Counted from the stretch's first letter, positions 1 through 10,536 are shown. The stretch: DNA of 37,974 bases from Acidobacteriota bacterium (GCA_022562495.1 JADFPE010000010.1:1-37974), one strand, 5' to 3'. A program made the numbers and translations. Notes: generated by a model from the sequence alone, not told the origin.

Positions 1-2399
1 ACATGTAGTACCCCGGAGGCGCCACAAACGCGTTTGGGGGTGCCGTGAGCGTCAGCGATCCGCTCTGGGCGGTGACGATACTCAGACCCACGTAGCGCTG
101 CTCCTGGTTGAAGGAGTGTGTTACCGCGCCCGGCCGAATGAGCGCCGCCGACACCACCGCGCCGGCGTCCGGAGCGATCACGTCGAAGTTCGCCCCGTAG
201 GCGACCGTATCCGGCGCGCTCGTCACGTTCGGTCGTGGGCCTTGGAACAGGTACGGCGGGCTGTATATTTCCACGCGGTACTCGGGATAGTGGAACGGGT
301 GGGGGTTGAACTCCTCGTCCTTCCCGGACGTGAGCACCCGCCCGTCCGGCAGCAACAGCGCCGTCGCGTGATACAGCCGCGGCACGCGCATCGGGCACAG
401 GGCGGTCCAGGTGTCGGTCGATGGATCGTAGCGCTCGACCGCGAACACCGGGTTGATGCCGTTGTCCGCCACTCCGGTGCTGCTGCCGTTCATCACGAGG
501 ACCGTGCCGTCGGGGAGCAGCACAGAGTCGGGCATCACGCGCGGATGCGACATCGGCGTGGCCGGCGCCCAGGCCAACGGGGCCTGACCGAGGTCGAGCA
601 CTTCGCACGTCGCGGTGGCCGGCGTCGTATCGGTGGCGGGCGTCGGACAGGAGACTCCAGCCCCCCCGATCAGCATCACGCGCGCCCGATAGGGTGGATT
701 CGATGTCGGCAGGAGCGGGAGGAGCACCGACGTCCCCTCAGACGGGTACGTGCGCGCCGTCTGCGACAGCGTCGACAGGCGCGTCGCATCGAAGGTGAAG
801 CTCGACAGATCCAAGAACGCCGTCGTCGTCTTCGCGTGGATCAACAGCTTGCCGGAGGGCAGCACGTACACGAAGGGATACAGCCAGTACGGGTCCACCT
901 CGTTCATGAACGGCGCCGGTTGCGGAGGTTCGAGACCGGACGCTGGATTGAAGATCTCGTATGTCGCCTGGATGGCGCCGCCGGTAATCTGGCACGAATG
1001 GGGGTTGACGCGTGGTCCGCCGCCGGTGCCTCCGATGATGAAGATTCGACCGTCGGGCAGCGTCGTCACCGTCGGATACCAGCGACCGGCCGAGATGTTG
1101 CCCAGCTCTTGCCATTGGCCGCCGCCCCCGTTCGGCGTGAACGTATGTAGTGCGTTCGCCCCGCCGAGATTGCCACCGACCACGAGTACGCGTCCATCGT
1201 CGAGCGTCGAGTGACCGCAGCAGAAAACATTCCGGGCGAGCGCGAGGCGTGTTTCCTCACCGGTCACCGGGTTGAAGACCACGGAGTCGCCCGAGGCCTG
1301 GTCCTCGTGCTCCTTGTAGGAGGCGAACAAGACGCTGCCGGTACGCAGCAGCACCGTGTGGATCCCGACGACACCCGCGGAGTGCGGCACGCGCCATTCG
1401 CCCTGGCTGACCGGGTTGCACAACGGTTCGGTGCACGCGGCGGCCGCCGGACCCGTCCAGTCGTGCGGCGGTGCCTGACTCCGCACGTACACGACCGTGT
1501 TGGATCCGACCCTCGCGATCGCATCGAGGCTCCCGGCACCCGGTGTGCCCGGCCGGGCATGAATGAGCGCGACGGCGCTCACGGTCCCGCTGCCGAACTC
1601 GACCGGTGGGCTCCAGGGCGTCGTCGGGTGATCGTTGTCGCGCGTGATATGGGACAGCCCGCTCGCGGCGAGCGGCGTCACGAGCTCGAAGTTGCCCTTC
1701 GTGCCATGTCGGCTCTGGATGAACGCGGGGATGCCGGCGGCGCTCGTGAGCACAGTCTGCGGCGGGCTCCACGCGAACGCCGGACCGACGTCGCGGAACA
1801 TGTGAGACAACACGTCACCGGCACGTGCAATGACCTCCAGGTTGCCGGGGGGGCCGCCGTAGTTGCTCTGTATCATGGCGACCGCGTCGACCTGACCCAA
1901 CCCGGCCGCAAAGACGCCGGTATGGATCCAGTGCGGGTGGGGTTGGTCGTTGTCCCACCAGTAGTGGCTGATGCCGCCGGATGCCGTCGGTACGACGAGC
2001 TCGAGATTGCCGTGCGTCCCGAACCGGCTCTGGATCAGCGCGGGATTTCCAGCAACGCCGGACGCGAAATGCACCGGGCCGAACCAGACAAACGGCTTGC
2101 CCGGTCCGGGTACCCGGCGCGTGTAGTGTGCGAGCCGGGGTCCGACGCGCGCCACCAGTTCAAGGTTGCCGTTGTGGACGGACGGCACCTGGTCGCTGCG
2201 CGCCACCAACGACACTGTGTCCACGCCCGCGCTCCCGAACGCGTCGCCCAGGAGCCATGGGGCGCCGGGTAGGTCGTTGTTGCGCCAGCAGTGCCGGAGT
2301 CCGCCCAGCGCGCTGGGGGACACGAGCTCGTAGTTGCCGTGCGCGCCGTGCGCGCCCTGCACCGCGAATCCACTCTGGGTGTACGGGATGGAGTCCTTT
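1..2399 (-). CDS. Copper radical oxidase (galactose/glyoxal oxidase-like), partial, with N-terminal repeats
   Basis: The reading frame is open from about 2399 to the window edge, so the C-terminal end is missing. The distal part is a Kelch-type copper radical oxidase. All four expected active-site elements are visible: Cys in FCCGH (about 1212-1229), the radical Tyr in RWYPT (about 1073-1090), Tyr-His in RLYHAT (about 366-383) and the last His in THSFNQEQR (about 100-126). The last visible residues, LTAPPNAFVAPPGYYM, belong to the C-terminal DUF1929-type sandwich. Ahead of the oxidase are about five repeats of the form QSxxGxxGNxELV...HYWRDND, resembling blades of PLL-type lectin propellers (tentative). 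Such enzymes oxidise alcohols or aldehydes with O2, giving H2O2, outside the cell. I found no in-frame ATG, GTG or TTG from about 2650 down to a GTG at 2362, and that GTG lies inside the first repeat. No signal peptide is visible, so the 5' end may be lost. Function is clear, start is not. Confidence 0.8.
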
Positions 2400-2415
2400 T
2401 GGGGAAACGGCCGGA

Positions 2416-2717
2416 TTATTGTGCGCGCGCGTCTTCGTGCGTGCTTTGAACGGCCGTCATCGACCTGCCAGGATCGGGACGGGCGTGGCGGTCGAGCATT
2501 GCACAGGCTGGACGGTGCAGCGAGGCGAAGACCGTCACGTCCCGCTCGACGCGCGCCTGGCGGTTCCGGTCGGACATGAACGCCTCGGGCAGCACCATGA
2601 GCGCCACGTCCCGATCGAGCGTGGTGTCGCGGGTCTGCCAGACTTGTCCCATGCGCCCTCGCCACGGAGGGCGGTCACGTCGTCGCGCCCGAGACGCGTG
2701 CCGGGGCTTTGGGGCAT
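2416..2717 (-). pseudogene. Ser/Thr protein kinase N-terminal fragment (frameshifted), kinase-leader copy 1
   Basis: The ATG at 2717 opens MPQSPGTRLGRDDVTALRGE, the usual start of acidobacterial Ser/Thr kinases of the Pkn type. One base is missing inside the Gly-rich ATP loop (GEGGMG). The frame that continues, from about 2652, reads MGQVWQTRDTTLDRDVAL then MVLPEAF and stops at 2416. The catalytic Lys of the VALK motif is Met, and only about 70 residues of the N-lobe remain, so no active kinase can be made. The downstream oxidase frame follows directly and is itself without a clear start, which suggests a rearrangement joining a kinase 5' end to a truncated oxidase gene. Confidence 0.8.
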
Positions 2718-2823
2718 GAGCGGGACGAGTCCCGAGCCATGCTACGCCCGGACGGTCAACGACTCCACCGTCGGGGACAGCCGTGCCCCGAGCACGCGCA
2801 CGTGCTCAGCGGGTCTGTCGTGG
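2718..2823 (-). promoter_or_regulatory. Kinase-type promoter block, copy 1
   Basis: This segment between the PQQ dehydrogenase stop and the kinase-remnant ATG is recognisably similar to 6188-6302 and 7101-7213. Shared pieces on the plus strand are CGGGTCTGTCGTG at the distal end, GGGGACAG in the middle and CTACGCCCG near the ATG. Read on the minus strand it has a -10-like TAGCAT (2739-2744), 22 bases from the ATG. I infer a promoter with a short untranslated leader. No convincing -35 box is seen. Confidence 0.6.
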
Positions 2824-2869
2824 TGCGTGGTGCAGGGGGCCCCGTGCTATACCGCAGCCCGCACAGCTC

Positions 2870-4852
2870 CTACGGCAGGCTCAGCGCGATCAACTCCGGT
2901 ACCTCGCCGCCGACCGTCAGCGCGATGTACTGCGTCCCCTCGTACATGTAAGTCATCGGCGTGCCGATGGCGCCGGACGGGAGATCAACCGAGCCGACGA
3001 TGACCCCGCTCGCCTTGTCGCGCGCCACGAGCCTGGGACCGTCGTCCGTGCCGCCGGCAGACAGGGCGCTGATGAGCAGGGTCTTCGTCAGCACCGGTCC
3101 GCCATGCCCTTCGCCACCCAGCGGCGGCAGATCGAGATCGCGCAACAGCGGGTGGTTGCGATAGCGGTTGCCGTCGCCGTTCGGCTGCATCCACGCATGC
3201 TCGCCTGTGTTGAGGTCGATCGCGGTGATCCGTGTGTAGGGCGGCTTCAGCAGCGGCAGGCCCTGCGGCATCCGAGGCTGGGTGCCGGCGGCGAGCCCGC
3301 GAAACGTGTAGCGAAGGTTGCCGCCGTCGGCCGGGTCCGGCGTGTAGTACTTCAGCACCGAGAAGCGGTTCATCGACGGCACGTACAGCAGCCCTGTCTC
3401 GGGGTCGACGGCCGCGCCGGTCCAGCTGGCGCCACCTCCGACGTAGGGGCGCTGAATCGTTCCCTGCAACCCACCGTCGACACTCAGCATCGGTGGACTG
3501 AAGAGCGGCCCGAGCCTGAAGTTCTTGACCGCCTCGACCGCCATCGCCCGTATTTCTGGTGTGAAGTCGACCAGGTCGTCGATGCTGACGCCTTGATACT
3601 CGAACGGCGGCGGCTTCGTCGGGAACGGCTGTGTCGGCGACAAGATGTCGCCTTCCAGGTCGGTGTCGGTTGCCACGGGGCGTTCTTCGATCGGCCAGAC
3701 CGGGTCGCCGGTCACCCGGTCGAAGACGTAAGTGAAGCCCTGTTTGCTCACCTGGGCGATGGCCTTCACCGAACGGCCGTCCACCGTGATGTCGACCAGG
3801 TTCGGCGCGGCGGGAAAGTCGTAGTCCCAGACCCCGTGATGCACCGCCTGGAAGTGCCACATGCGCTGGCCGGTCTCGATGTCGAGCGCGACGAGGCTTT
3901 CGGCAAACAGGTTGTCACCCAAACGGTGACCCCCGTAGTAGTCCCCGGTCGGCGTGCCGGTCGGTAAGTAGATGTAGCCGAGCTCGTCGTCGACGCTGAG
4001 CATGGTCCAGACGTTCGCGTTGCCCGAGTAGCGCCACGACTCGTTCAGCCACGTGTCGGCGCCGAAGTCGTCGGCTTGCGGCACGGTGCGGAACATCCAC
4101 TTCGTCTCGCCGGTTCGCGCGTCGATCCCCTTGAGCCAGCCGGGCGGTGCCTCCTTGTGGATCGCGCCATCCGAGATGACGCTCGGTGTGACCACGACAT
4201 CGTGCGCGACGATCGGCGGTGAGGCCACCCCGAACAAGTTGCGCCCTCTGTAGTTGGTCTCTCCGCGCACGGCGCGCGGGATGCCCTCCATCAGGTCGAC
4301 GCGACCGCTGTCGCCGAAGTCGAGCACCGGCTGCCCCGTGCTGGCGTCGAGCGCCAGCAGATAGCCCTCGTTCGTGCCGAAGAAGATCCGGGCATCGTCA
4401 CCGTCGGTCCAGTAGGCGACACCACGCGAGTTGTAGAAGTGGGTCGGGCTGCCGCCCAGGTAAACCTCCGGATTGTGCACCCACAGGGTGTCGCCGGTCG
4501 CGGCATCGACCGCCGCGACCTGGTGCATCGCGGTCGAGAGGTACAGGACACCCTCGACCATCAGCGGTGTCGCCTGGAACATCCGGAATTGCACTCGCGG
4601 CACCTGCTGCCTGATGGCCTCGAGGTCGAGCGACCCATCGGCCGACTGCCAGCGCCACGCGAGGCGGAGGTCCCGGAAGTTCGTCGCGTCGATCTGATCC
4701 AGAGGGGAGTACTTGGTGCTGCCGAGGTCGCCGCCGTAGCTCCGCCACTCGCCGTCCGTGGCGCCGTATTGGGCCAGGCTCGGGGCAGGCGACAACAGCA
4801 CCGCACAACACCAGGCGGCACAGACGCAGCGTGGACTCGCAATCCTAGACAT
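2870..4852 (-). CDS. PQQ-dependent dehydrogenase (quinoprotein glucose/alcohol dehydrogenase type), exported
   Basis: This is a 660-residue protein. I chose the ATG at 4852 because GGAGG stands about six bases upstream; an ATG 21 bases earlier would lengthen it by seven residues. A signal peptide (hydrophobic AAWCCAVLLSPAPSLA, cleavage near SLAQ) directs it to the periplasm. The mature part is an eight-bladed quinoprotein propeller: WRSYGGDLGSTKYSPLDQI at the start, repeated ALD..TG..LW blades, and the active-site stretch HHGVWDYDFPAAPN with the catalytic Asp expected in this family. Such enzymes oxidise sugars or alcohols with PQQ and pass electrons to quinone or cytochrome c. No haem-binding CxxCH is present, so an external acceptor is needed. 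The substrate cannot be told from sequence. A kinase-derived leader ORF (4845-4976) overlaps its start. Confidence 0.88.
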   Translation of the reverse strand: MSRIASPRCVCAAWCCAVLLSPAPSLAQYGATDGEWRSYGGDLGSTKYSPLDQIDATNFRDLRLAWRWQSADGSLDLEAIRQQVPRVQFRMFQATPLMVEGVLYLSTAMHQVAAVDAATGDTLWVHNPEVYLGGSPTHFYNSRGVAYWTDGDDARIFFGTNEGYLLALDASTGQPVLDFGDSGRVDLMEGIPRAVRGETNYRGRNLFGVASPPIVAHDVVVTPSVISDGAIHKEAPPGWLKGIDARTGETKWMFRTVPQADDFGADTWLNESWRYSGNANVWTMLSVDDELGYIYLPTGTPTGDYYGGHRLGDNLFAESLVALDIETGQRMWHFQAVHHGVWDYDFPAAPNLVDITVDGRSVKAIAQVSKQGFTYVFDRVTGDPVWPIEERPVATDTDLEGDILSPTQPFPTKPPPFEYQGVSIDDLVDFTPEIRAMAVEAVKNFRLGPLFSPPMLSVDGGLQGTIQRPYVGGGASWTGAAVDPETGLLYVPSMNRFSVLKYYTPDPADGGNLRYTFRGLAAGTQPRMPQGLPLLKPPYTRITAIDLNTGEHAWMQPNGDGNRYRNHPLLRDLDLPPLGGEGHGGPVLTKTLLISALSAGGTDDGPRLVARDKASGVIVGSVDLPSGAIGTPMTYMYEGTQYIALTVGGEVPELIALSLP

Positions 4853-4976
4853 CGTGTCCTCCGTGGTTGTCAACGCGTCCCACCGTCACCGACGGCGGGG
4901 AGCAGTCCGACGACGAAGCCTCACCGATGAGGCCGGTCACGGCGTGCCCGAGGCAGGTAGCAGGACTCAGGGTCAT
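4845..4976 (-). other. Kinase-leader copy 4: 43-codon upstream ORF overlapping the PQQ dehydrogenase start
   Basis: The ATG at 4976 opens MTLSPATCLGHAVTGLIGEA, clearly the first 20 residues of the Ser/Thr kinase family (consensus MxLxPGTRLGHYxVTxLLGEG). It then runs through unrelated codons and stops at TAG 4847-4845. The next gene's ATG is at 4852-4850, so the two frames overlap by eight bases. The frame is intact from ATG to stop. Whether the peptide matters or is only a fossil of the kinase 5' end is unknown; the layout would allow translational coupling. Confidence 0.65.
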
Positions 4977-4996
4977 GGTGAGCCGGAAACGGGCCC

Positions 4997-5002
4997 ATCA
5001 TA
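4997..5002 (-). promoter_or_regulatory. -10-like box of kinase-leader copy 4
   Basis: On the minus strand TATGAT lies 21 bases upstream of the leader ATG at 4976, the same spacing as the -10-like boxes in the three other kinase-leader copies (21-27 bases). The sequence further upstream (to 5093) is not obviously like the other copies. Confidence 0.45.
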
Positions 5003-5093
5003 CCGGAACACCGGTGTGGACCCAGGCGTGTGGCGACCGTCCCAGCTGTCCGGGACACCGTGCTCGTCCCGCGAGTGTGAGCCGCCGGTGTGA

Positions 5094-6086
5094 TCAACGA
5101 AACGGTGCCGGCGTGCTCCGGACCGTCATGCCTGGACTGGTCACACTGACCTCGATCTCGTCTGGCGGAATCAGCGCCTGGGGTCGTGCATACGCGAGGA
5201 TGTACTGGTTGGCGAGCTCGTGTACGATTCGCGCTAACCACTCTGCCAAGGCCGACGTCGAGCCCAGTTCCTCGCGACCGCCTCCGGTGACGCGCGGGAG
5301 CTGCTCGAGCACTGCGGCCCGATCGAAATCTCCCTGATCAATAAGTAATCCTCTCGTTGCCGACGAGGTATTCGCTGCCGCTGAGAAGGCGGGGAGTCCG
5401 ATGTCCCGGACGACCAGCGTGTGTACGGCAACCCGGGTGTCACGCAGCACGGCCATCACGCGGTCGAAAGCCAGGCCCTGACCACCTCGCGGGGACACGA
5501 CCACGGCGCCCTGAGCGCCCGTCCGCAGTCTGGCCGTGGCTGCGTTCGTCCCTTCCGTGGTGATGAGAACGATGACCGGCCGGATCGCGCCGCGTGCGCT
5601 GAGATCGAGCGCTGTCTCGACCAGCGCGTTCGTCATGTAAGCGCTGGTCTCTGAGAAAAGCACGAACTGCACCGCCGCCGCTGTGAGCCGCGCTTTGTCC
5701 TGCGTGTAGTCCACCAGGGTTTGCAGGTGATCGCCGAAGGTGATCAAGGCAACCAGCTGACCGTCGGGCAAGGCTTCGATGAGCTCGGTGAGGCCGTTGC
5801 GCACATGCGACAACGTGCGCGTGAGCCCCGTGCTGTCATCGACGAGAATGGCAAGCTGCATCGGGACGGCGGCATGTTCCACGCGCAGAATTTCTCGCCG
5901 CTGACCGTCTTCTTCCACGATGAAGTCTTCCACGGTCAGACCGACGACAGGAGTCCCACGCTCGAGCACGCTCACGAAGATGAACTGGTCACTCGCCTGC
6001 GCTCCGACCGCCGGTCCACGGCCCGCCGCGCCGAAGCCGACCGTGAGAGCCACCGCTCCGCCGACGAGCGTTCGACAGATGCTCAT
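5094..6086 (-). CDS. Secreted VWFA-related protein (acidobacterial type)
   Basis: This is a 330-residue protein. The start ATG 6086 is chosen from GAGGAGG just upstream and from the following signal peptide (MSICRTLVGGAVALTVG, cleavage near VGAQA). It has the layout of the acidobacterial VWFA-related family (TIGR03436 type): a short strand-rich N-terminal part with VEDFIVEEDGQRREI, then a von Willebrand A-like domain from about residue 75 (MQLAILVDDSTGLTRTL) to 250. The metal-binding DxSxS motif is degenerate (DDSTG), and the later ITTEGTN replaces the usual TDG, so metal-dependent ligand binding is doubtful. The role is unknown; I infer an extracytoplasmic binding or surface protein. A kinase-derived leader ORF ends on its start codon. 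Confidence 0.75.
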   Translation of the reverse strand: MSICRTLVGGAVALTVGFGAAGRGPAVGAQASDQFIFVSVLERGTPVVGLTVEDFIVEEDGQRREILRVEHAAVPMQLAILVDDSTGLTRTLSHVRNGLTELIEALPDGQLVALITFGDHLQTLVDYTQDKARLTAAAVQFVLFSETSAYMTNALVETALDLSARGAIRPVIVLITTEGTNAATARLRTGAQGAVVVSPRGGQGLAFDRVMAVLRDTRVAVHTLVVRDIGLPAFSAAANTSSATRGLLIDQGDFDRAAVLEQLPRVTGGGREELGSTSALAEWLARIVHELANQYILAYARPQALIPPDEIEVSVTSPGMTVRSTPAPFR

Positions 6087-6187
6087 GGGCTCCTCCTCTC
6101 GATCGCCGTACGGCTCCCCCAGGCCCCCTCGCCGAGGAGGGCAGCCACGGCGTAGTGCCCGAGGCGGGTGCCGGCAAACAAGGGCAT
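6083..6187 (-). other. Kinase-leader copy 2: 34-codon upstream ORF ending in ATGA overlap
   Basis: The ATG at 6187 opens MPLFAGTRLGHYAVAALLGE, then GAWGS where the kinase Gly-rich loop would continue, and the frame stops at TGA 6085-6083. The stop overlaps the VWFA gene's ATG (6086-6084) as ATGA, the classic coupling arrangement. The coding match to the kinase N-terminus ends at about codon 25. The Shine-Dalgarno sequence of the downstream gene lies inside this ORF. Confidence 0.7.
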
Positions 6188-6302
6188 GGTCTGTTGAGGA
6201 CGAGTCACGAGCCATTCTACGCCCGAACGGTCAACACTTCACCCTCGGGGACAGAAGTGCCCGTGCACTGCGCACGTGCGCAGTGGGAGCGGGTCTGTCG
6301 TG
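6188..6302 (-). promoter_or_regulatory. Kinase-type promoter block, copy 2
   Basis: The best preserved copy of the block. On the minus strand it has a -10-like TAGAAT (6219-6214), 27 bases from the leader ATG. On the plus strand it shares GAGCCAT, TACGCCCG, ACGGTCAAC, CGGGGACAG and AGCGGGTCTGTCGTG with copy 1. The remaining bases to 6412 hold nothing I recognise. Confidence 0.6.
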
Positions 6303-6412
6303 CCGGACGGTCTCTCAGGGGGTGCTACACCCGCCCAGGCGGAGGTCGGGTCTCCAACGGCCGTGGTGGTCGGCTGCATCTCACCAGCGAAGCGGGCCTG
6401 AACGTGGATGCT

Positions 6413-6970
6413 TCAGCGTCGGGTGCGACTCGACAACCACCAATAGACCAGAACCAGAGTCCCGGCGACGAACAAGGGACCTGCCCAGAGGAGGCGTGCG
6501 GCACGGCCGTCGTTCTTTCCCTCGGCCTCGACCGGACGCGGTGTTCCGGAGTTCCCGCGCGGGTCGTCCGACGCGATGGCCCGATCGTTGACCACCGCCG
6601 GCCGCCCGCCAAGGAGCTCACGCACACGGCTGATGACGACCTGCGGCGCGAACGGTTTGACCAGCACCGCGTCACATCCGACCTGCCGGACGCGATCTTC
6701 GTCGACGGGCTCGCCCGCCACGGTCAGCAGCACGACCGGAATGTGCGCGAGCGCGGGATCCTCCTTGATGAATGTCGCGACCTCATAGCCGTCGCGCTCC
6801 GGCATTCTGGCGTCGGCCAGCACGATGTCCGGCGGATTCGCCTTGATTCGATCGATCGCTTGTTGTCCGTTCCCGACGGCGATCACCCGGATATCCTCGT
6901 CGGCGAACGTCAACTCGATGACACGCCGGATCGTGGCGCTGTCGTCGGCGACCAGGAGTGTCTGTGACAT
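6413..6970 (-). CDS. Response regulator receiver domain with a C-terminal membrane anchor
   Basis: This is a 185-residue protein. Residues 1-125 form a complete receiver domain: acidic pair in LLVADDSATIRR, phospho-acceptor Asp in DIVLADARMPERDGYE, and the conserved Lys in VLVKPFAP. There is no DNA-binding or enzymatic output domain. After a polar linker (about 125-160) comes one strongly hydrophobic segment, LLWAGPLFVAGTLVLVYWWL, then a positively charged SSRTRR end. The predicted layout is a cytoplasmic receiver held at the inner membrane by a tail anchor, which is uncommon. The start ATG 6970 is chosen because the receiver fold begins there. No cognate histidine kinase is adjacent. A kinase-leader remnant lies 130 bases upstream. 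Confidence 0.82.
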   Translation of the reverse strand: MSQTLLVADDSATIRRVIELTFADEDIRVIAVGNGQQAIDRIKANPPDIVLADARMPERDGYEVATFIKEDPALAHIPVVLLTVAGEPVDEDRVRQVGCDAVLVKPFAPQVVISRVRELLGGRPAVVNDRAIASDDPRGNSGTPRPVEAEGKNDGRAARLLWAGPLFVAGTLVLVYWWLSSRTRR

Positions 6971-7043
6971 GGGTCTGGGGGCGATGCTGGAGCTGGCTGG
7001 AGCGGCGTGTCGGATTCGCGCTCCGGCCTCCGTCGTCACGATC

Positions 7044-7100
7044 GCCGATCTTGGCCGTTGTGCCGTAGTGCCCGAGCCGGGTACCCGCAGGCAGGCGCAT
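7044..7100 (-). pseudogene. Ser/Thr kinase N-terminal remnant, kinase-leader copy 3
   Basis: The ATG at 7100 opens MRLPAGTRLGHYGTTAKIG, matching the kinase N-terminal consensus, after which similarity is lost. The frame does not stop before the response regulator start (6970) but continues into that gene in another frame, to 6783. It is thus the least ordered of the four copies. Confidence 0.65.
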
Positions 7101-7213
7101 CGTCTGTTGGACACGCGCCGAGTCATTTTACGCCCAAGTGGTCGAGGCGCTACCGACTGGTACTGAAATGCCCCTGGAGAGCGCACGGGCGCGTTCTCAG
7201 CGGATCTGTCGTG
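7101..7213 (-). promoter_or_regulatory. Kinase-type promoter block, copy 3
   Basis: Similar to copies 1 and 2 in the same order: CGTCTGTTG next to the ATG, AGTCATTTTACGCCC, a central GTACTGAAATGCCC and a distal CAGCGGATCTGTCGTG. On the minus strand the -10-like hexamer is TAAAAT (7130-7125), 25 bases from the leader ATG. Confidence 0.55.
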
Positions 7214-7509
7214 GAGGGGAGGGCAGGCGCTTGGACCTCGTTCCGAGATCGCCGGGCGGCTGGTTCCTCATCGGCCTCCTCTGCCACCCGCAGCCCCAAC
7301 GTGACAGGGCCCGTCGACGAGATCGGATCACGCCCACCTCGGGCCGTGCGCTGCCCGTGCTGCATCTCGTATTAAGATGTGTTCGAACAGTCGATGGCGC
7401 GCGAGAGCCGGACCCGCCAGCGCGATGGCGCTCGAAGCCACGCCCGGCGCGGCGGGCTACTCGACCGGGTTCTTCGACGGAGACTCGGCGCGGAAGAGAG
7501 AGACAGCTG
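7214..7509 (+). promoter_or_regulatory. Non-coding region upstream of the second PQQ dehydrogenase
   Basis: No convincing gene is seen here. The only promoter-like feature for the downstream plus-strand gene is TATTAAGAT at about 7369-7377, which could hold a -10 box. I see no clear -35. A purine-rich GGAAGAGAGAGACAG stretch just before 7510 is the probable ribosome binding site. Confidence 0.3.
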
Positions 7510-9324
7510 ATGAGATCTCTGGACAGACGACGTGTCCGCGTGGCGGTGACGACGCTCGCCCTTGCGGCGATCCCCGGCCTCCATCCGGTGGACGCCGAGC
7601 AGCAGGGGCGGACCACCCGGACGGGGGTACCGCCCACGATCACCGCCGGCAGCCGCCAGACGAACTGGGCGAGTCACAACCTGGACCCGTACAACCAGCG
7701 GTATGCCGAGATCGACCAGATCAACACCGACACCGTCGACCGGCTCCAGCGTCGCTGGTCGTTCGACGTGCCGCCCGGGCTCTCCGTGAGCCAGGTCACT
7801 CCGCTGGTCGTCGACGGTCTCATGTACCTTCACTCCGGCGCGACGGTGCTCGCCATCAACGCGGTGACCGGGGAAGCGGTGTGGACGCTGGAGGTCGATG
7901 GCGTCAGCGGTGGGGTCGTGCGCGGACCGCTGTATGCCCGCGGCACGATTTATTCCTACCACGGCGACAAGCTCGTGGCGGCCGATGCGAAGACCGGGGA
8001 GCTGGTCGAGAGCTTCGGTGACGGCGGCGTCCTTCCGATTTTCGGCCTGGCGCTGGAGACCAAGTACCCGGACCTGTATCCGCCAGGCTTCGACGCCTCT
8101 TCGCTGAACTACCGGATGAACAGCTCGCCGGCGTATCACGACAACACGCTCTATGCCGCCTCCGCGATCTCCGAGGGGAACATCCCCGGCGGGCTCGTGG
8201 TGGCCGTCGACGCCACCACCGGAGAGATCAAGTGGGTGTTCAACACGATCCCGCAGGGCCCGCAGGACGAGGGCTGGGCGCATGCGGACCCGACGTGGGG
8301 CGACGGCAAGCGGGTGGGGGCCGGCATCTGGACCCAGCCGGCGATCGACGTCGACCTGGGCCTGCTCTTTTTCAACACCGCCAATCCGAACCCCCCGTAC
8401 GACGGCTCCGCCCGGCCTGGGGCGAATCTGTTCACCAACTCGACGATCGCGTTGGACCTGGAGACCGGTGCGCTCAGGTGGTACTTCCAGTCGATCCATC
8501 ACGACCTCTGGGACTGGGACAACATCACCGGTCCGGTGCTCTTCGATGTCACGCGCAACGGCGAGACCATCAAGGGGGTGGGCGCGGCCGGCAAGAACTG
8601 CCTGCTCTACCTCTGGCATCGCGAGACGGGCGAGCCGATCAACCCGATGGTCGAGACGCTCGTCCCCACCGAGACGAACGTGCCGGGCGAGGTGGTCTAT
8701 CCGACCCAGCCGATCCCGTACAACGCCCGCGGCGTGCCGCTGACGCCGTTCTGCGCCACCTATCTGGATCTCGACGACCCGGAGCTGCAGGCGCAGGCGC
8801 GACAGATGTACACACCCTACTCGACCGACGAGCACTACATCGTGGCGCATGGGGGCTCGAGCTTCGGCTCGCCCTCTTTCAGCCCGCGTACCGGCCTGCT
8901 CTACGTCACCGGCAAGAACGCCGGTGTGTCACTCCTCGTCAAGCCGCTCGGCGACAGTCTGAAGCTGGGGGAAGGCGGTGGCCATGCGAAGAACTTCACC
9001 GAGATCGACCGGATCCCGGCCTACCCGCCGACGATGACGCTGACGGCCTACGAGCCGGCCAGCGGAGAGGACGTGTGGCAGCAGGTCCTGCCGGCGCTCA
9101 CCTTCGGCGCCTCGAGCGGTAGCCTGACCACCGCGGGCGATCTCGTCTTCCAGGGGACCGAGGACGGCGGCTTCTACGCGTTTCACGCCGAAACGGGAGC
9201 GCAGGTCTTCCACTACGACGCGGGACGCACGATTCGTTCGAGCCCGATGACATATGAAGTCAATGGCACGCAGTATGTCGCCGTGATCGCATCGAATACC
9301 GTCCTGGCGTTTGCCTTGCCGTAG
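7510..9324 (+). CDS. PQQ-dependent alcohol dehydrogenase-type quinoprotein, exported
   Basis: This is a 604-residue protein. The start ATG 7510 follows a purine-rich ribosome binding site and opens a signal peptide (VAVTTLALAAIPGLHPVDA, cleavage before EQQ); the longer upstream frame is not protein-like. The propeller begins NWASHNLDPYNQRYAEIDQI and has the active-site run SIHHDLWDWDNITGPVLF, where the Trp-Asp pair corresponds to the catalytic Asp region of PQQ alcohol dehydrogenases. The end, FHYDAGRTIRSSPMTYEVNG, is typical of the last blades. The adjacent-Cys pair that forms a vicinal disulphide in classic PQQ alcohol dehydrogenases is not seen; only isolated Cys residues occur. There is no haem motif. 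A periplasmic alcohol or sugar oxidation role is likely; the substrate is unknown. Confidence 0.87.
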   Translation: MRSLDRRRVRVAVTTLALAAIPGLHPVDAEQQGRTTRTGVPPTITAGSRQTNWASHNLDPYNQRYAEIDQINTDTVDRLQRRWSFDVPPGLSVSQVTPLVVDGLMYLHSGATVLAINAVTGEAVWTLEVDGVSGGVVRGPLYARGTIYSYHGDKLVAADAKTGELVESFGDGGVLPIFGLALETKYPDLYPPGFDASSLNYRMNSSPAYHDNTLYAASAISEGNIPGGLVVAVDATTGEIKWVFNTIPQGPQDEGWAHADPTWGDGKRVGAGIWTQPAIDVDLGLLFFNTANPNPPYDGSARPGANLFTNSTIALDLETGALRWYFQSIHHDLWDWDNITGPVLFDVTRNGETIKGVGAAGKNCLLYLWHRETGEPINPMVETLVPTETNVPGEVVYPTQPIPYNARGVPLTPFCATYLDLDDPELQAQARQMYTPYSTDEHYIVAHGGSSFGSPSFSPRTGLLYVTGKNAGVSLLVKPLGDSLKLGEGGGHAKNFTEIDRIPAYPPTMTLTAYEPASGEDVWQQVLPALTFGASSGSLTTAGDLVFQGTEDGGFYAFHAETGAQVFHYDAGRTIRSSPMTYEVNGTQYVAVIASNTVLAFALP

Positions 9325-9347
9325 CGCGCGCCCCTTATCACGCAGGG

Positions 9348-9625
9348 TTGTTGTCGTACTCCCTCCAGAAGCTGCGCGCGACGCCGGACGGCGATGGCTC
9401 GCTTCTGGACCAGGTGATGATCCTGTATGGGAGCGGCATGGCAACAGCAACCTTCATAACATCCAGCACCTGCCGATCCTCTTGGCCGGCGGGGGAGCAG
9501 GCCGGCTCCACGGGGGCCGCCACATCCGGTACTCGGACCAGACTCCGCTGATAAATCTGTATCTGACGCTGCTGCACAAGCTGGATGTGCCGGTGGAGAG
9601 CATCGGCGACAGTACAGGCGAGTGA
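9348..9625 (+). pseudogene. Decayed C-terminal fragment of a DUF1552 protein
   Basis: Two frames together give the C-terminal third of a DUF1552 protein. The first has LRATPDGDGSLLDQVMILYG and SGM. After a one-base shift near 9440 the second continues NSNLHNIQHLPILLAGGG, RHIRYSDQTPLINLYLTLL and GDSTGE, ending at TGA 9623-9625. The N-terminal two thirds are absent; the preceding PQQ dehydrogenase stops only 23 bases earlier. DUF1552 genes are common in Acidobacteriota and Planctomycetota, usually beside cytochrome-containing DUF1592 partners, which are not present here. I read this as a deletion scar. Confidence 0.75.
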
Positions 9626-9873
9626 CAGCATCTGACCGACATCTGAGTGTTGGGTGGTGCATTCGATGACCAGGACACGATCGACGATGCGGACGTTTCC
9701 GTATTCGCGGACTGACGTACGCCCAGTGCCGTGTACCGTGCCGTCACACCACAGCCCCTCCGCGAGTGTCGGGACGCGCCGAGTGCCGTTGGCTGCGTTC
9801 GCCGCCACGCTTCGTGTGGGAACCAGGGCAGGTCACTTCGGGTCCTGCGACCACGAGGTCGTGACGTGCGACA

Positions 9874-9904
9874 CTGACATCGATGAGGAGTGGTGCCGTA
9901 GAAT
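9874..9904 (+). promoter_or_regulatory. Candidate leaderless promoter of the ferredoxin gene
   Basis: A CTGACA (9874-9879) and a TAGAAT (9899-9904) are separated by 19 bases. The ATG at 9911 lies seven bases after the -10-like box, where transcription would begin, so the mRNA may carry no leader. No Shine-Dalgarno sequence precedes either ATG (9905 or 9911). The rest of 9626-9873 shows nothing recognisable. Confidence 0.4.
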
Positions 9905-9910
9905 ATGCAC

Positions 9911-10261
9911 ATGTCCCAGCTGACGGTCGAAGGATACGGAACGTTTGACGTCCCCGCGCAGAAACGCTTGGTGCTTGCCGTCGAGCAAGATGCCGGCGTC
10001 GACATCATGCACGCCTGTGGCGGCAACGCGCGCTGTACCACATGCCGCGTCGAGTTCGTCGACGGAGAGCCCTCCACGATGACGGCGGCTGAGAAAGAGC
10101 GCCTCAGCGAGCGCGGTCTGACCGGCGTGCGGCTGTCGTGCCAGATTCTGTGCGACCACGACATGACGGTCCGCGCGATCAGCCGGTTGGAAGGCACAGG
10201 CCGACCTGACCCTGGGGCCACGCCGGCGGACGCCATTACGCCGCCGCCGGAGTGGGTGTAG
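9911..10261 (+). CDS. Plant-type [2Fe-2S] ferredoxin
   Basis: This is a 116-residue protein from ATG 9911 (an ATG at 9905 adds two residues). The cluster ligands are present in the plant-type arrangement: C-x5-C-x2-C in HACGGNARCTTCRVEF and the fourth Cys in VRLSCQILC. It is an electron carrier of about 95 residues followed by a Pro/Ala-rich tail of about 20 residues (GRPDPGATPADAITPP). It stands alone between a decayed gene and the padR locus, so its redox partner cannot be told from context. Confidence 0.88.
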   Translation: MSQLTVEGYGTFDVPAQKRLVLAVEQDAGVDIMHACGGNARCTTCRVEFVDGEPSTMTAAEKERLSERGLTGVRLSCQILCDHDMTVRAISRLEGTGRPDPGATPADAITPPPEWV

Positions 10262-10282
10262 CCGTGGTCGGCGCCCGTCATC

Positions 10283-10304
10283 AGGCGGCTCCCGCGCCTT
10301 TTTT
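10283..10304 (+). terminator. Weak intrinsic terminator after the ferredoxin gene
   Basis: A five-base-pair stem AGGCG / CGCCT around a seven-base loop is followed by a run of six T (10299-10304), 22 bases after the ferredoxin stop. The stem is short, so efficiency may be low. The region from here to 10488 shows no gene I can support. Confidence 0.45.
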
Positions 10305-10488
10305 CTGAAACTCCCATCCCGCAGCTCGCTGGACCGGTGTCGCCACACCACTGCCGACCCGCCTCGTAGGTCACCGCGGCACCCCGCAGGGTCAGCAGGT
10401 CCTCTACATCCTTCATCGGTGGAGCCTGTCCGTTCATCCTCAACGTGACAGTGCCCCCACGGCAGAGGGCGACGGCGTTTCTGTCCTC

Positions 10489-10536
10489 TTGACAATCTAG
10501 AGAAGCGGTGTATCGTTATCCTCTAGTTAATCTAGA
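10489..10536 (+). promoter_or_regulatory. padR promoter with TCTAG(A) boxes
   Basis: TTGACA (10489-10494) and TATCGT (10511-10516) are spaced by 16 bases, a good sigma-70-type pair. TCTAGA occurs at 10496-10501, inside the spacer, and again at 10531-10536, with a TCTAG at 10522-10526 just before it (TCTAGTTAATCTAGA). PadR repressors usually bind palindromes in their own promoters, so these boxes are good candidates for an autoregulatory operator. A TCTAGA also stands before the other permease gene in this window. Confidence 0.6.

Follow-up and report, generated by a model that had tools for sequence, protein, structure and literature searches.

The window, the whole stretch of 37,974 nucleotides analysed here, is a 38-kb contig (C46) of a marine Acidobacteria draft genome (G000; 4.74 Mb, 339 contigs, ~90% complete), whose closest named relative is Acidobacteria bacterium SZUA-1123; the dispersed kinase starts described below belong to a group of marine Acidobacteria. 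Analysing its first part, we found that four consecutive minus-strand genes, encoding a response-regulator receiver protein, a VWFA-domain protein, a PQQ-dependent dehydrogenase and a kelch protein, each carry one protein kinase N-terminus just upstream (Table 1). Translation confirmed that the minus-strand ATGs at 7100 (MRLPAGTRLGHYGTTAKIGD), 6187 (MPLFAGTRLGHYAVAALLGE), 4976 (MTLSPATCLGHAVTGLIGE) and 2717 (MPQSPGTRLGRDDVTALRGE) encode the kinase N-termini assigned to them in the first-pass annotation. All four copies stop before residue ~87 and no kinase middle is found at these sites; the catalytic loop HRD and the activation segment of PF00069 are absent from all four. A second PQQ dehydrogenase gene lies on the plus strand at 7540-9324, and copies of it in three genus members (87-94% identical) align over the gene only (~7475-9326).

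Table 1. Coordinates of the kinase starts, their upstream regions and the genes behind them in the window.
Feature	Position	Strand	Details
Class A module, upstream part	7101..7227	-	-10-like TAAAAT 7130-7125; blastn and alignment to 7 other copies
Leader ORF with kinase N-terminus (~20 aa of kinase)	6783..7100	-	overlaps the regulator gene
Response-regulator receiver protein, downstream gene 1	6413..6970	-	Pfam PF00072; DNA blocks
Class A module, upstream part	6188..6320	-	-10-like TAGAAT 6219-6214
Leader ORF, 34 aa, kinase N-terminus	6083..6187	-	stop codon TGA and VWFA start codon ATG overlap (ATGA)
VWFA-domain protein, downstream gene 2	5094..6086	-	Pfam PF13519
Class B promoter region (putative)	4977..5040	-	TATGAT 5002-4997; same family as C153:4428 and G002:C157:5675
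Leader ORF, 43 aa, kinase N-terminus	4845..4976	-	8-nt overlap between its stop and the PQQ start (ATGTCTAG)
PQQ-dependent dehydrogenase, downstream gene 3	2870..4852	-	Pfam PF01011
Class A module, upstream part	2718..2836	-	TAGCAT 2744-2739
Frameshifted kinase remnant, ~87 aa over two frames (2717-2535, 2652-2416)	2416..2717	-	
Glyoxal/galactose oxidase-like kelch protein, downstream gene 4	2..2362	-	Pfam PF07250, PF09118; gene model; runs off the window, start uncertain

The -10-like boxes reported in front of the four ATGs are present, at gaps of 21 (TAGCAT), 20 (TATGAT), 26 (TAGAAT) and 24 nt (TAAAAT) rather than the 21-27 originally given. DNA alignment also bore out an upstream block of ~110-125 bp common to the 2717, 6187 and 7100 copies, here called class A: the 2717 and 6187 blocks are 76% identical over 187 bp (E ~1e-32), the 7100 and 6187 blocks 72% identical over 152 bp (E ~2e-17), and the 5’ edge is fairly sharp, about 115-133 bp before the ATG. 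The 4976 copy matches the other window copies in its coding part only and has a different promoter family upstream (class B), which rules out a single promoter shared by the four starts. The proposal that a kinase 5’ module was repeatedly placed upstream of unrelated genes thus holds, genome-wide and in relatives, but not as one module for all four sites, and the common control signal envisaged for the four genes is not supported, as several promoter families exist and a strict consensus scan of the region detected no full sigma-70 promoter. A known RNA element was rejected on two grounds: no Rfam match was obtained in window positions 1-10500, and the class A consensus fold is weak (-2.98 kcal/mol, 2 compensatory pairs).

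Class A is not confined to the window. The suggested genome-wide search yielded seven copies in the genome, and the module occurs in all four genus genomes and in none of 36 others, standing before response-regulator, VWFA, kelch, PQQ and alpha/beta-hydrolase genes. The copies are 78-87% identical to their consensus and 72-76% identical pairwise; the most conserved 12-mer, GGGCGTAGAATG (mean 0.95 vs 0.80), fits a putative -10 element. TATAAT lies about as far ahead of the ATG in several other promoter families. Another promoter family, GATATAAT...GACTCTC, precedes full-length kinases in the genus member G002 as well as orphan starts (kinase N-termini with no kinase middle within 700 bp, as judged by neighbour pairing) in G000 and G010, which links the orphan starts with genuine kinase promoters. 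For the class A promoter no such full-length kinase turned up, so that the blocks match intact kinase promoters in the GATATAAT...GACTCTC family and not in class A. Two further upstream sequences were observed. A repeated block, TTAAGGATYGGA...GACCCAGGACG, precedes three kinase starts in G002 (L227, C14:4277; L224, C48:2011; L228, C67:40712), which have unrelated downstream genes and no obvious TATAAT. At ~1501-1544 of L250 (G001:C377) the inverted-repeat part of class A stands by itself, with no kinase start, which suggests that it is a separable piece.

Kinase parts were counted by six-frame searches and from fetched stretches, with three queries of 80 aa each, for the N-terminus (hand-composed), the middle and the C-lobe; all genomes compared are drafts. 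In the 4.74-Mb genome these gave 70 N-terminal, 36 middle and 24 C-lobe matches, the N-lobe being the best conserved part of the kinase. Neighbour pairing left 39 orphan starts vs 4 orphan middles, all four of them weak, while a second paralogous family of the same genome, permeases, serving as the control for such a skew, gave 22 matches each for its start and its end. The excess of starts recurs in genus members (N-terminus to middle 60:24 in G002, 11:4 in G003 and 38:26 in G001) and in a related genus, further relatives giving 33:15 (G010), 23:10 (G016) and 13:4 (G022), and is absent from most other families of the order, for which the ratio across 14 genomes is ~1.1 (357:324). Given that single-genome probabilities are modest (p = 0.0006 in G002 and 0.006 in G000, not significant in G001 and G003), the case rests on repetition across genomes and on the orphan counts. 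Insertion of genes into kinases with no loss of the kinase body was ruled out, as leftover middles would then be found, and simple decay of kinases in place is disfavoured by the 39 vs 4 orphans and by a deletion shared between copies (see below). It is scarcely credible that the pattern is an artefact of assembling or binning metagenome genomes: many orphan starts are indeed found on short contigs or close to the end of one, and every genome is a draft, but four copies sit inside one 38-kb contig and the same pattern appears in independently assembled genomes, one of them 96% complete with 1% contamination.

To describe what follows the orphan starts, their surroundings were examined in three genomes (G000, G002 and G010), with gene starts called by a home-made codon-usage finder. 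Where a gene was predicted within 300 bp downstream, it lay on the same strand as the kinase start in 52 of 62 cases; some orphan starts face a gene on the opposite strand or have none close by (10 near, 6 far). The upstream neighbour is also on the same strand in 47 of 69 cases, partly since modules form arrays, so the excess in orientation is moderate, although the downstream rate differs from the upstream one (p = 0.004). The downstream genes are mutually unrelated and include those for a sulfatase, a beta-lactamase, a PQQ dehydrogenase, a cytochrome c, a radical SAM protein, an MmgE/PrpD protein and a cupin, among others. An ATGA-type overlap with the predicted ATG of the next gene was found for 8 of 34 leader frames vs 2 of 76 control frames (p = 0.001), the 6187 leader and the VWFA gene being one such pair. 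Other leaders are fused in frame to the following gene (a sulfatase at C151:1323, a serine hydrolase at C153:4428, cases on C1, C48 and C76 of G002, and a PQQ gene of G003). Most fused genes retain an internal ATG and a signal peptide after the leader, indicating that the in-frame fusion may be incidental. An array larger than that of the window was seen at L224 (G002:C48), where five consecutive kinase starts all have different genes behind them (cupin, unknown, fused alpha/beta hydrolase, fused methyltransferase, potassium-channel-like). We considered whether the short kinase peptides are functional themselves, for example as decoys or interaction tags, as the open leader frames of most copies and the several in-frame fusions would allow. 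This we regard as very improbable: many copies are frameshifted or have no glycine-rich loop, leader lengths vary widely, and in most fusions the downstream gene retains an ATG and a signal peptide of its own.

The relatives show how the cluster is composed. Over 2852-4872 the window PQQ gene matches one of SZUA-1123 at 95% identity, and nothing aligns beyond this block; in SZUA-1123 that gene has a different upstream neighbour and no module, while a PQQ paralogue on the same SZUA-1123 contig, 80% identical, is preceded by a class A module whose leader is in frame. For the VWFA gene, alignment with the G002 orthologue is limited to 5104-6088, and the G002 copy is likewise without module. The receiver part of the regulator (6595-6974, from the ATG to residue 125) shares 83-88% identity with paralogues from the same genome and its relatives, whose sequences are unrelated to its C-terminal part, making 6413-6970 a chimeric gene. 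By these alignments, of which those of the PQQ and VWFA genes end at gene edges, the cluster is a mosaic of gene-bounded blocks, set differently in relatives. On the side of the starts, a one-base deletion in the codons of the glycine-rich loop is common to the 2717 copy, C193:17196 and the SZUA-1123 copy (L095 of G003). The 6187 copy is consistent with it, C155:25137 does not have it, and C121 and the 7100 copy are too diverged to judge. Either an already broken start was copied or the same breakage arose three times, which would be very unusual. Two further traces of rearrangement were seen. A 223-bp piece of the kelch gene (1550-1772) is 94% identical to C262:9959-10183 of the same genome, where it adjoins another kinase N-terminal fragment, and is a recent shuffling of gene pieces. 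Paired kinase N-termini 89 bp apart occur on two contigs of this genome (L059, C253, 1841/1930; L046, C265, 12027/12116), joined at nearly the same point (GMTADSCTQ and GMTADRRTQ); here a start was inserted into a start and the product was itself duplicated.

An array of module-gene-module-gene in a single orientation, blocks bounded by genes, the fairly sharp 5’ edge of class A and a 20-bp palindrome in the 6187 copy are what one would expect of an integron attC-like or MITE-like unit that moves with or between gene cassettes. Inspection of the ends and folds makes such a unit improbable, however. No inverted-repeat pair of the kind expected for a MITE or insertion sequence is common to the four window modules. 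As to target duplications, the direct repeats seen at these modules measure 13-24 nt at only 66-86% identity, and none of them is common to the modules. The repeated block has no conserved consensus fold of the attC type, and neither palindrome nor fold is conserved between copies. Moreover, the 3’ edge varies from ~20 to 87 codons, and promoter families other than class A behave alike with none of the class A sequence.

A neutral origin deserves more weight and still seems to us unlikely. By this account a large kinase family undergoes birth and death and leaves truncated pseudogenes, whose starts survive by chance and are of no use to the genes downstream. The kinase part has indeed decayed, with frameshifts and broken glycine loops, some orphan starts have no same-strand gene nearby, and the genome contains other gene fragments, such as the kelch fragment at C262. 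Random decay, however, predicts as many orphan middles and ends as starts, contrary to the orphan counts and to the balance of the other family; nor does it account for the -10 core being the most conserved segment, for the excess of same-strand genes and ATGA overlaps, or for the shared deletion, by which a broken start was copied.

Taking the dispersal, the conserved cores and the placement together, we consider it probable that a kinase-derived promoter and translation-start module has been reused as an expression leader for neighbouring genes. On this model the kinase promoter, 5’ untranslated region, start codon and first 20-60 codons would have become detached from the kinase body, been copied to many places and come to serve the adjacent gene as its expression leader. 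RNA polymerase would start from the conserved -10-like core, which precedes the kinase ATG by ~20-27 bases, and ribosomes would start on the kinase-derived leader frame, which would pass translation to the new gene by an ATGA stop/start overlap, by in-frame read-through or by leaving it to its own start shortly downstream. The kinase part of the leader would yield no kinase, as it ends before the catalytic loop. Illegitimate recombination may have joined gene-sized DNA blocks to kinase starts, and the arrangement may have been kept because expression was gained. A bolder version, which we put forward tentatively and hold to be somewhat doubtful, is that kinase starts form a standing stock of expression modules, each with promoter, ribosome site and leader frame, from which incoming or shuffled genes across the genome are supplied with copies, i.e. 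a promoter-plus-leader capture system going beyond a mobile promoter alone.

The closest known kind, as far as summaries of it go, is the putative mobile promoter, described in PMC8049555 and PMC9944727 after Matus-Garcia et al. (2012, NAR 40:10032) and van Passel et al. (2014, Genetics 197:291) as short repeats, thought to be promoters, upstream of unrelated genes; here the unit also carries coding sequence. Class A resembles these elements in placing one upstream sequence before several non-homologous genes of a genome. It differs in that their near identity between copies is not seen, the copies being old and diverged (70-87%), and, as far as those summaries describe the elements, in that part of a named protein family, a start codon and 20-60 codons, belongs to the unit and that one and the same kinase start goes with several promoter families. 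Horizontal regulatory transfer, or regulatory switching of intergenic regions (Oren et al. 2014, as presented in PMC9944727), likewise moves regulatory DNA apart from the gene it controls, but is described there as replacement at the same locus between strains, whereas here one source stands before many different genes of a single genome. In experimental evolution, promoter capture by gene fusion (a term used in PMC4395868) similarly puts a gene under the promoter and start of another by rearrangement; the present case is natural and repeated dozens of times from one gene family. An expansion of Ser/Thr kinases as full paralogues has been reported for Candidatus Solibacter usitatus of the Acidobacteria (PMC3174227), and the source here is also an expanded kinase family of that phylum, but truncated starts, pseudogenes and promoters go unmentioned in the text of PMC3174227. 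The literature searched, with most subscription papers outside its coverage, gave no description of the kinase-start leader pattern.

Annotators of these genomes should be wary of short ‘protein kinase’ genes and of unrelated enzymes with an N-terminal kinase domain, as what looks like a signalling protein there is probably the remnant of a leader. For bacterial genome evolution, one gene family having seemingly donated its start dozens of times makes it countable and testable, by genome comparison, how genes that have just arrived or been shuffled gain working expression signals. If the bolder version is true, dozens of unrelated enzymes would share their control and translation start with a kinase family.
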